Source: Planctomycetota bacterium
GTDB lineage: Bacteria > Planctomycetota > Phycisphaerae > Phycisphaerales > UBA1924
Assembly (NCBI GenBank): GCA_014584315.1
Contig: JACTNA010000035.1
Span: 62,001 to 126,000, forward strand
Length of the DNA: 64,000 nt
Direction: 5' to 3'
The translations under genes and the position numbers were made by a program. Each line of letters opens with the position of its first letter. Position 1 is the stretch's first letter. Of this stretch, positions 14,290 through 18,009 are shown in pieces. A model generated the notes under the pieces. That model made no database searches, was not told where the DNA came from, and was given only the letters and a program-made list of their open reading frames with translations.

Positions 14290-16734
14290 ATGACCGCGGC
14301 GGCCACCGACACGCCCATTCGTACTCGCTACAAGGAGTCTCGGACGCTTGTACGCCGGCTCTGCCGTCTGCCCCACGAGGGCCGCGAGGACTACAGGCGC
14401 AAGGTCTCCCTGCTGCGCGAGCACTTCGAGCGGTTCAACGCCGACACCGCGGGACTCTGCCAGTGGCTGATGGGCCTGCGCAAGCGCGCGGGAGACGAGG
14501 CCCATCCGGAGACGTTCGGCACGCTCGGGGACTTCCTGCTCGAACCCGCGTTGCTCGGTGTCGAGGCGGACGAAACCGAGCGCGACCGCTGGCGTCTTGC
14601 CGTCTTCGACCACGTCGCCGGCTTCCGGTCCGTCGAGACCATCGCAGGTCGCCCCATCCCCGACGGCCTGCGCCGGGCGATGGACGACGCCGCGGCGCAC
14701 GCCCCGCGCCGCGACCCTCTCAACCTCGCCGCGGCCAGGCTCTTCGATCGACTCGCCGCGCTCGACCGCGCCCACCGCCTCGTGCTCCTCAAGTCCGCCG
14801 CCGAGTGGGTCGTCGCACGCTACAAGCGCGGCGTCGAGAACTGGATCCGCCAGCGGGCCGCGTGGGAGCAGGAGCGCGACGAGTGGGAACGCGCCCACCC
14901 CGAACTCACGCCGGAGGCCCGCGAGCGGTTCACGGACGTCTACCGCACGCTCCTCGACCCGGAGCGCGACGACAGACCCGGCATCCGGCGCAAGGCCCCG
15001 CGCATCTGCTCATGGGAGCGCCTGCGACAGAACATCGACGACTGCTGGTACGGCCAGAAGGGGCACGGCCCGCTCTGCTGGAAGTACGGGGAGTTCGTGA
15101 GGGCACGGAAGGAGGCGAACCCCAAGTTCAATGACAAGCGATTCTGGGAGGACGCCGATCGGCTCGTCCGCTACTGCGCAGAGAAGTGCGTGAAGCCGCA
15201 CAATGTCTTTCTCAGCCCGAGCATGCCGCGCATTCTGTTCAAGGACGTGCCGGAACGCGAGGGACCTCAGGCGATGACGCGCCTCAAAACGAACTGGAAC
15301 GCCTACCTCAAGCACATGGAACTCAACCCGGAGACCGTCGTCCGGCACGGGCGCCTCCCCCACTGCCCGAAGATCGGCGGCAAGGTCTTCGAGAAGTCCG
15401 ACTGCGTCTGGAACCCCCACACCGAGTTGTGCCAGCGATACCGGCGCACGGCCTCGCAACTCCCGGATGCCCTCCTCGCCCTCGAAGAGCAGTACCGCGA
15501 GTGGCGCAGGCTCTACCTCGCCGGCCCGCGCAAGCCGACCTTCGTCTACCCCTCCGCCCGAGACCTGCCCATGCCCAAGGTCTTCGGCGAGGGCTTCCAC
15601 CAGATCGACCTCGACCGCGCCGTCGTCCGCCTCCGCCTGGAAGGCTCGCCGCAGGGCGAGTGGGTCGAGTTCGGGTTCACCCCCTGGCCGCGAGGGTACC
15701 GCCCGTCCAAACGCGAAGTCGCCATCACCAGCGTCCACGTCCACTTCGTCGGCGCTCGCCCGCGCGTCGGCTTCCGCTTCGACGCGCCCCACAAGCCCGC
15801 CCGCTTCGCCTGCTCGCAGGACGAACTCCAACTCCTGCGCAGCCGCGAGTTCCCACGCCGGGCGCAGGACCAGCGGTTCATCGACGCCGCCCGACGCCGC
15901 CTGCTCGAATCCTTCAACGGCGACCCGGAGCGCGACCTGCGACTCCTCGCCGTCGATCTCGGCGAGAAGGGCGCACACGCCGCCGTCTACCGCGGACGCA
16001 CCCACGAGCGTGATATCGCCCTGAAGATCGTCAAGATCAACGCCCTCTACGACTCCGTGCCCGACAGGCTCGTCCCGTGCGACAAAGATCCGAAACGCAA
16101 GCAGCGACCCGCGAAGACCGAGTTCGACCGAACGCACGACCCTCGCGGCCTGCGCAAGGAGCACCTCGCCCGACACCTCGAACGCCTCGCCGAGGGCGCG
16201 ATCGAGATCGCCGAGCACAGGCAGCGCGAGGGCGAGCCGGCCCCGAAGCCCGCCGCCCACGACCAGCGCGGCCTCCAGCGCCACGCCGCCTGGATGATCC
16301 GCGACTGGGCCAGGCTCAACGCCGCCCAGGTCATCGCCGCAGCCGAGGAGCACCGCTGCGACCTCATCGTCTTCGAGAGTCTGCGGGGCACCCGCCCCCC
16401 CGCCTACGACAAACTCGGCGACGACGCCGAACGCAAGAAGCGGTCCGCCGCCATGCACGCCTACGGCCGGGTCCGCGCCAAGGTCACCGAGAAAGCCGTC
16501 GAGCGCGGCATGCGCGTCGTCACCGCCCCCTACCACGACTCCTCGCACGTTTGCTCGGCCTGCGGCGCGCCGCAGGAGAACCGCGGCCTGTTCAACAAGA
16601 ACAAGGGCAAGCGGAAGTTCGTCTGCGAAAAGTGCACGCGGGAGATGAACAGCGACGCCAACGCCGCCCGCGTCCTCGCCCGCGTCTTCTGGGGCGAGAT
16701 CACGCTCCCCGCCCCCAAGCCGGGCGTGGGCTGA
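14290..16734 (+). CDS. Compact type V CRISPR effector (Cas12-like, RuvC nuclease), subtype unassigned
   Basis: The 814-residue protein has a TnpB-like C-terminal nuclease. RuvC-I is LLAVDLGEKGAH with D556, and RuvC-II is DLIVFESLRG with E696. A four-cysteine ribbon follows (C755, C758, C779, C782), and RuvC-III is MNSDANAARVL with D789. All three catalytic acidic residues are present, so it should be an active nuclease. Residues 1-550 lack a motif I know and presumably hold the REC and WED domains; the region 430-500 is beta-rich. It is followed by a tracrRNA-like gene and a CRISPR array, with no cas1, cas2 or cas4. Size and dual-RNA layout recall Cas12l, Cas12b, Cas12e or Cas12f, but I cannot place it by reading. 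A stray TnpB is unlikely given the array and large N-terminus. Confidence 0.88.
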   Translation: MTAAATDTPIRTRYKESRTLVRRLCRLPHEGREDYRRKVSLLREHFERFNADTAGLCQWLMGLRKRAGDEAHPETFGTLGDFLLEPALLGVEADETERDRWRLAVFDHVAGFRSVETIAGRPIPDGLRRAMDDAAAHAPRRDPLNLAAARLFDRLAALDRAHRLVLLKSAAEWVVARYKRGVENWIRQRAAWEQERDEWERAHPELTPEARERFTDVYRTLLDPERDDRPGIRRKAPRICSWERLRQNIDDCWYGQKGHGPLCWKYGEFVRARKEANPKFNDKRFWEDADRLVRYCAEKCVKPHNVFLSPSMPRILFKDVPEREGPQAMTRLKTNWNAYLKHMELNPETVVRHGRLPHCPKIGGKVFEKSDCVWNPHTELCQRYRRTASQLPDALLALEEQYREWRRLYLAGPRKPTFVYPSARDLPMPKVFGEGFHQIDLDRAVVRLRLEGSPQGEWVEFGFTPWPRGYRPSKREVAITSVHVHFVGARPRVGFRFDAPHKPARFACSQDELQLLRSREFPRRAQDQRFIDAARRRLLESFNGDPERDLRLLAVDLGEKGAHAAVYRGRTHERDIALKIVKINALYDSVPDRLVPCDKDPKRKQRPAKTEFDRTHDPRGLRKEHLARHLERLAEGAIEIAEHRQREGEPAPKPAAHDQRGLQRHAAWMIRDWARLNAAQVIAAAEEHRCDLIVFESLRGTRPPAYDKLGDDAERKKRSAAMHAYGRVRAKVTEKAVERGMRVVTAPYHDSSHVCSACGAPQENRGLFNKNKGKRKFVCEKCTREMNSDANAARVLARVFWGEITLPAPKPGVG

Positions 16735-16757
16735 CCCCGCCCAGGCCCGACGCGGGG
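16735..16757 (+). terminator. Hairpin directly after the effector stop codon
   Basis: CCCCGC (16735-16740) pairs with GCGGGG (16752-16757), loop 11 nt, followed by GTTG rather than a T-run. It may end or protect the effector mRNA. It overlaps the upstream edge of the tracrRNA promoter. Confidence 0.35.
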
Positions 16758-16758
16758 G

Positions 16759-16787
16759 TTGCTCCGCGCCCGGAACGTCGGTATCAT
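16759..16787 (+). promoter_or_regulatory. Promoter of the tracrRNA-like gene
   Basis: TTGCTC (16759-16764) and TATCAT (16782-16787) are separated by 17 bp. They match sigma70 consensus at 4/6 and 5/6 positions. The predicted start is about 16794. This is the best classical -35/-10 pair I see in the window and it precedes no protein gene. Confidence 0.6.
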
Positions 16788-16793
16788 CCGGTC

Positions 16794-16912
16794 GCTTCGA
16801 GTCATATGCCCGGAATACGCCCGGCGGACCGTTGGACCAACGGGATGGACCCCAGGCACGAAGCAAAAGTCTCGATGCTGCGGTCAGATGCACGGCCGTC
16901 TTCCAGGTTTTT
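16794..16912 (+). ncRNA. Candidate tracrRNA with anti-repeat
   Basis: Positions 16871-16893 match the reverse complement of the CRISPR repeat (repeat bases 2-24) at 19 of 23 positions. Two of the four differences become G-U pairs, so 21 of 23 bases can pair with a crRNA transcribed on the plus strand. Upstream is a tight hairpin, CCGTTG-gac-CAACGG (16829-16843). Downstream is TTTTT at 16908-16912 as a likely 3' end. Hairpins first, anti-repeat near the 3' end and a short T-run is the layout I know from type V tracrRNAs such as that of Cas12b. Exact ends are inferred, giving a length of about 119 nt. Confidence 0.65.
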
Positions 16913-16964
16913 GGAGGGCGATTCGGGCGCAAAGTCTTGTGGAGCAACGACTTACGCTCGGTCC

Positions 16965-17527
16965 GGTGCGCCTGGCCGCAGAATCGAGGCTCCCGACACC
17001 TTCTCTTTGGGGACCGTGACCATCGCCGGGGTGCGCCTGGCCGCAGAATCGAGGCTCCCGACACCAGCAGCGCCCGCGTCGCGTCGTCGATCGCGGGTGC
17101 GCCTGGCCGCAGAATCGAGGCTCCCGACACCACATTGTTTGACAGGCCTCCGGTGAGAGTTGGTGCGCCTGGCCGCAGAATCGAGGCTCCCGACACCAGG
17201 GCGACGCCGGCGACACGCGAGCCCTGCGGTGCGCCTGGCCGCAGAATCGAGGCTCCCGACACCAGCTCCTTTGCGTTGTTCCCGCGGGCGGCGGGTGCGC
17301 CTGGCCGCAGAATCGAGGCTCCCGACACCCCTCCGGGGAGAGTTTGATCCCTAAGGATCGGTGCGCCTGGCCGCAGAATCGAGGCTCCCGACACCCTGCC
17401 GGTCTACTGGGCCTGCATCCGCAACGGTGCGCCTGGCCGCAGAATCGAGGCTCCCGACACCTAGCACCAGCACTTGCCGCCGGACTGACCGGGTGCGCCT
17501 GACCGCAGAATCGAGGCTCCCGACGCT
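16965..17527 (+). CRISPR. CRISPR array: nine 36-bp repeats, eight spacers
   Basis: Repeats start at 16965, 17030, 17096, 17162, 17228, 17294, 17360, 17426 and 17492. The first eight are identical (GGTGCGCC...CCGACACC). The ninth differs at base 11 (G to A) and in its last bases (GACGCT for GACACC). Spacers are 30 nt except the first (29 nt), and all are different. The degenerate repeat lies at the far end from the effector, so the leader is on the effector side and transcription runs on the plus strand. The repeat 5' half can pair with the anti-repeat at 16871-16893. No adaptation genes are in the window. Confidence 0.97.
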
Positions 17528-17575
17528 GGGCTGGGAGTGTGATGCGAACGGTGGAGTGGTGCGCGTGGGCGCGGG

Positions 17576-18009
17576 GTCAAACGGATCGTGGGGCGTCCTC
17601 GCGCATCGGGTGCCCCGCTGCGCCGCGGCGGCTGCGGCTCGTGCGTCTCTCCTGCCGCTCGTGCGCGTCCCACAGCTCGCATGACGGCCTTCTCATCCGG
17701 TGCCCGGGCACCGTCCCCCAGCCCGAAGGGCTGCTCGTTCGTAGCCGGGGGTGGAGGAGGCTTTGCGACGACACCCCCGGGACACGCGGCCCACCCTTCC
17801 CCTTCCCTCTTGGTTCCGCAGCCCGAAGGGCTGCTCGTGCCGCGCACACGCCGGAGCCACGATGACTCGTTCGGAGTCCGATGGCTGGTGTGCCCAGGTC
17901 CGGGGGTCTCGCTCGAAGACTCGCACGACCCCCGGCTACTGACGGCACAGCCCTTCGGGCTGGAGCAATGGCGCAGCCCATCGGGCTGAAGTCAAACGGA
18001 TCGTGGGGC
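17576..18009. repeat. Composite structured repeat, copy A, flanked by a 19-bp direct repeat
   Basis: This 434-bp stretch fills the gap between the array and the CPBP gene. It contains CAGCCCGAAGGGCTG palindromes at 17719, 17819 and (as CAGCCCTTCGGGCTG) 17948, a variant at 17974, and long hairpins with arms CCGGGGGTG/CACCCCCGG (17745-17780) and CCGGGGGTC/GACCCCCGG (17900-17935). A small hairpin, GACTC-GTTCG-GAGTC, lies at 17864-17878. An inverted homologous copy lies at 57161-57600. The 19-mer GTCAAACGGATCGTGGGGC occurs at both ends (17576-17594 and 17991-18009). It codes for no convincing protein. Confidence 0.8.

Follow-up and report, generated by a model that had tools for sequence, protein, structure and literature searches.

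RESULTS

The effector gene and the array

The window, a 64,000-nt stretch of a planctomycete genome, contains a gene for an 814-aa protein (14290–16734) and, beyond a gap of 230 bp that follows the stop at 16734, a CRISPR array whose first repeat begins at 16965 (16965–17526); these, and all of the window features described below, lie on the forward strand. The array comprises nine repeats of 36 nt, the last of them degenerate, and eight spacers of 29–30 nt. Bar the terminal one, the repeats are identical, and their sequence does not occur elsewhere in the 3.3 Mb genome.

In an HMM search, the 814-aa product matches the PADLOC Cas12g profile PDLC01702 with an E-value of 0 and 1019 bits over its full length (residues 11–808 on profile positions 3–753/754), whereas the runner-up family, Cas12b, reaches 56 bits. 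It also matches three solved Cas12g sequences (6xmf, 8i16 and 8i3q; E about 1e-188), and in a four-way alignment it shares 44–48% identity with the others, 47% in the case of Cas12g1. The RuvC catalytic residues Asp556, Glu696 and Asp789 are invariant in this alignment, the first of these aligning with Asp513 of Cas12g1, which is replaced by alanine in inactive solved mutants. Moreover, all 12 cysteine and histidine ligands of zinc in Cas12g1 are invariant: the HCCC finger corresponds to His259, Cys263, Cys359 and Cys372, the CCHC finger to Cys240, Cys252, His377 and Cys381, and the CCCC finger to Cys755, Cys758, Cys779 and Cys782. Judged by this homology, the effector is a full-length Cas12g, of subtype V-G, with its catalytic and zinc-finger residues intact. 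An earlier, sequence-only reading of the window had proposed a tracrRNA between effector and array, which is supported, but had left the effector unnamed.

None of the six neighbouring genes tested is a cas gene, cas1 and cas2 included; they encode metabolic or membrane proteins. The host genome does encode RNase III, and its sole Cas1 match adjoins a Cas9-like gene on another contig, next to an array with a different repeat. This second CRISPR locus (G000 contig C9, L026:2981-8684), which is cut by the contig end, consists of the Cas9-like gene (1345 aa), cas1 and the array; its repeat, containing AGTGTAATCGATCCCAGCCCGCGAGCAACCCGCAAC, is unrelated to that of the window. As the only Cas1 match sits at this separate locus, it is possible that spacers are supplied in trans by its Cas1. 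The spacers gave no convincing target, either in phages (best E-value 0.5) or in the host's own genome, where there were GC-rich partial matches only.

Fourteen loci for comparison

A scan of a genome collection, combined with alignment, yielded ten cas12g loci, and whole-genome searches added more, including one from the same genus with 80% protein identity; no Cas12g was found in plasmids and viral contigs. The comparative set comprises 14 distinct loci with gene, gap and array, and the repeats of these have diverged strongly. At one planctomycete MAG locus, L007:4154 (also L040), a TGA replaces a conserved tryptophan (Trp59 in the window protein); this cas12g is either interrupted or misassembled, while the locus retains the promoter, the tracr body and the array.

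The main anti-repeat

Within the gap, positions 16868–16893 form an ungapped duplex with bases 2–27 of the repeat, in which 24 of 26 positions are paired. The earlier observation that 16871–16893 equals the reverse complement of repeat bases 2–24 at 19 of 23 positions, with two further G-U pairs, was confirmed. The anti-repeat scores 53. Markov shuffling of the gap, repeated 1000 times, gave at most 51, and no other 230-nt stretch of the window, out of 1090 compared on both strands, exceeded 43.

The stronger evidence comes from the related loci. The pairing test used only the 34 nt that follow stem P1 (see below), a limit chosen independently of the repeat sequence. In the first 10 loci, the anti-repeat found its best partner in its own repeat in every case (0/20000 permutations as good); in all 14, the own repeat ranks first in 12, and the summed pairing energy is −459 kcal/mol, against −285 ± 21 kcal/mol when repeats are permuted (0/50000 as good). 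The exceptions are L041, with its own repeat at rank 2, and the same-genus locus (rank 3), for whose anti-repeat two foreign repeats are slightly better partners. Between the latter and the window, the tracr body is identical at 67 of 71 positions and the anti-repeat at 18 of 26: at repeat position 23 both sides have changed, from A-U to C-G; at positions 6, 11, 12 and 22 the change is one-sided and pairing is kept; a pair is gained at position 18, and pairs are lost at 8, 14 and 16. The sequence-only reading had proposed looking for repeats and anti-repeats that drift apart without compensation, and the 14 loci give the opposite result.

The degenerate terminal repeat of the array (17491–17526) carries the change G11A, so that its duplex with the anti-repeat has an A-U in place of a G-U pair; the pairing energy is −43.0 kcal/mol with this repeat versus −42.4 kcal/mol with the others.

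Architecture of the RNA

Upstream of the anti-repeat lies a body of three stems, an architecture conserved in the 14 loci; counted from the first base of P1 to the last of the anti-repeat, the putative tracrRNA measures 100 nt (16794–16893). P1, which closes the body, pairs GCUUCG (16794–16799) with CGAAGC (16859–16864). Its sequence differs between loci with pairing maintained; since its boundaries were chosen by eye for complementarity, P1 pairing alone is no independent test. Inside P1 lie P2, between 16808–16813 and 16852–16857, and P3, between CCCG (16820–16823) and CGGG (16841–16844). In nine relatives, 81% of P2 and P3 cells are paired, compared with 72 ± 2% in shuffles (0/500), and the covariation score was equalled in 2/500 shuffles; the P3 helix by itself has 88.9% of cells paired in relatives. 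When the P2 and P3 registers are slid, pairing drops to 32–57%. The tight hairpin that the sequence-only reading had placed at 16829–16843 can be drawn (CCGUU/AACGG), but we reject it as a conserved helix: 53% of its cells are paired in relatives versus 50% in shuffles, and it is a different helix that is conserved. Folding of the single tracr sequence is no better than that of shuffles (z = −0.21), and the case for a tracrRNA is, therefore, one of comparison between loci, not of single-sequence stability.

A covariance model (R1) was built without the window sequence and was limited to the P2/P3 core, because P1 was misaligned when MAFFT was applied to the entire tracr. It matches the window at 16808–16857 with an E-value of 3.3e-12, the only strong match in the 3.3 Mb genome (the next has 0.058). 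Across 392 genomes of the phylum, only three score below 1e-5, namely, the three that carry cas12g, two of which, though not that of the window, had supplied sequences to the model. Three further matches, weak ones (E about 0.008) in genomes with no Cas12g match, were taken as chance. A search of 16600–17700 against Rfam returned nothing above threshold.

The tracrRNAs at L010:6542-6635 and L011:5394-5492 are distinguished from those of the other loci by an additional small hairpin, located after the second anti-repeat and before P2. Additionally, the distance from the end of P1 to the array is very nearly 100 nt in most loci (16865–16964 being the intervening stretch in the window), and the sequence in between is poorly conserved. 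A hairpin in the leader, just before the array, was considered as a conserved element, and was not significant in most loci.

A probable second anti-repeat

The sequence-only reading had missed a probable second anti-repeat (AR2) near the 5' end of the RNA: GUC at 16801–16803, which is complementary to GAC at repeat bases 31–33. It matches the trinucleotide 5'-GUC-3' near the 5' end of the Cas12g1 tracrRNA, G(-100)U(-99)C(-98), which forms the second repeat:anti-repeat duplex there and whose mutation abolishes activity. AGUC follows the 5' strand of P1 in exactly the 12 of 14 loci that have GAC near the 3' end of the repeat, and the two without GAC also lack AGUC; at L011, which is one of the two, GUGGA faces UCCAC in its place. 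The pairing is short, and 951/20000 permutations of the duplex did as well by energy and 78/20000 by pair score; given this weak permutation support, pairing of AR2 with the 3' end of the repeat is suggestive.

Promoter and 3' end

The proposed promoter, TTGCTC (−35, 16759–16764) and TATCAT (−10, 16782–16787) separated by 17 nt, is present, and its position is conserved: in 14/14 loci a −35/−10 pair with a spacing of 16–18 nt precedes the tracrRNA at the same relative position, the −10 element ending 5–9 nt before P1 (6 nt in the window). Across the set, 136 of 168 positions match the promoter consensus, whereas random positions give 65 ± 4 (maximum 80 in 3000 trials). The promoter of the window is the weakest match of the 14, at 8/12; the −35 elements of the other loci are TTGACA-like. 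In five loci (L007, L009, L010, L011 and L014), the TGA stop of cas12g lies inside the −35 box of the tracrRNA (TTGACA or TTGATA); with the promoter directly after the stop, and in these relatives overlapping it, cas12g and the tracrRNA appear tightly coupled.

Downstream, the run TTTTT noted earlier is found at 16908–16912, and most relatives have a T-run at a similar offset, some 43 nt beyond P1. No strong GC hairpin precedes it, and it does not amount to a canonical terminator; it is a possible 3' end, to which the tracrRNA may extend.

DISCUSSION

We conclude, with high confidence, that the gap between effector and array contains the gene for the tracrRNA of a Cas12g (type V-G) CRISPR system. 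By definition, a tracrRNA is transcribed and pairs with the crRNA; for this locus, comparison with the related loci supports both the pairing and the promoter. The guide of Cas12g is a crRNA:tracrRNA pair, and the tracrRNA of Cas12g1 is a 94-nt RNA with two stems and two anti-repeats (PMC10511118); at a second Cas12g locus the tracrRNA lies between gene and array, and its tracr part contributes 91 nt to an sgRNA (PMC10707612). The placement of the tracrRNA between effector and array is a known property of V-G systems (PMC10707612, PMC10511118), and the suggestion of the sequence-only reading that the locus uses a dual-RNA guide is well supported.

In the likely route, a σ70-like promoter just after cas12g would produce, independently of the gene, an RNA starting near 16794, which would fold into the P1–P2–P3 body. 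Its 3' anti-repeat would pair with the 5' two-thirds of each repeat in the pre-crRNA, and the 5' GUC with the 3' end of the repeat, adjacent to the spacer. Type V systems that rely on a tracrRNA are generally expected to be processed by RNase III. Cas12g1 is unable to process its own pre-crRNA in vitro (PMC10511118). By analogy with Cas12g1, the duplex would probably be processed by the host RNase III and loaded into Cas12g, which would then cut complementary RNA, with no need of a PAM, and display collateral RNase and ssDNase activity.

Could the complementarity be without tracrRNA function, either arising by chance or left behind by an inverted, repeat-like element that has decayed? Complementarity arises easily in GC-rich DNA such as this gap, and one of the 1000 shuffles did come close to the observed score. 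Chance or decay would not, however, be expected to yield own-repeat pairing in 14 diverged loci, compensating changes in repeat and anti-repeat, a fixed spacing of the promoter, conservation of the body and a match to a model trained without the window, and we regard this explanation as extremely improbable. Equally improbable is that the RNA mainly regulates cas12g or the array and is not part of a guide complex. Some long forms of tracrRNA do act as regulators, and the position of the promoter, directly after the cas12g stop or overlapping it, would suit such a role; published V-G biochemistry, however, has the tracrRNA within the guide complex, and AR2, which Cas12g1 needs for cleavage, is conserved here.

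Somewhat less improbable, but still unlikely, is that the RNA is or was a tracrRNA at a locus now decaying and without function. The lack of cas1 and cas2 among the tested neighbours, the small array with its uninformative spacer matches, and the premature stop in the cas12g of L007 would all fit; against this, the window cas12g is full length with its catalytic and zinc residues intact, the repeats other than the terminal one are identical, and the guide-RNA pairing is strong. A functional V-G tracrRNA gene remains our preferred reading. A more specific version of it, in which a planctomycetotal branch of V-G has built the tracrRNA promoter into the end of cas12g, so coupling their expression, and draws spacers in trans from a cas9-cas1 locus, is speculative and rather improbable.

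Few members of the Cas12g family, compact nucleases that target RNA, have been characterized. The window locus and its relatives provide complete sets of effector, tracrRNA and repeat that could be reconstituted directly; comparison of the loci supports the main repeat:anti-repeat duplex and the promoter and, less strongly, the second duplex. The general picture of how type V systems function is unchanged by the locus.

The sequence-only reading had drawn its comparison with Cas12b, Cas12e, Cas12f, Cas12c and Cas12l, dual-guide systems whose tracrRNAs likewise have a 3' anti-repeat; these are different effector families, and the Cas12g HMMs score far above those of Cas12b or Cas12f. The closer comparison is with Cas12g1 (PDB codes: 6XMF, 6XMG, 8I16 and 8I3Q; PMC10511118), which is a full-length homologue of 767 aa, against 814 aa here, and shares with the window locus the catalytic and three zinc-finger motifs and a tracrRNA with stems and two anti-repeats, the second being GUC. 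Cas12g1 comes from a hot-spring metagenome contig, whereas the window locus belongs to a planctomycete genome and is known from sequence. Such a host is unsurprising, since the nearest Cas12g homologues have already been placed in Terriglobia, Planctomycetota and candidate divisions (PMC10707612). The Cas12g locus from the Karmadon hot springs (Terriglobia; PMC10707612) also has its tracrRNA between cas12g and the array, with 36-nt repeats (10 of them, one a variant) and spacers of about 30 bp; it differs in host and sequence, and RNA cleavage was assayed there, whereas our locus has been read as DNA. Overall, the window locus is best regarded as a well-supported further example of the known V-G system, and not as a new kind.
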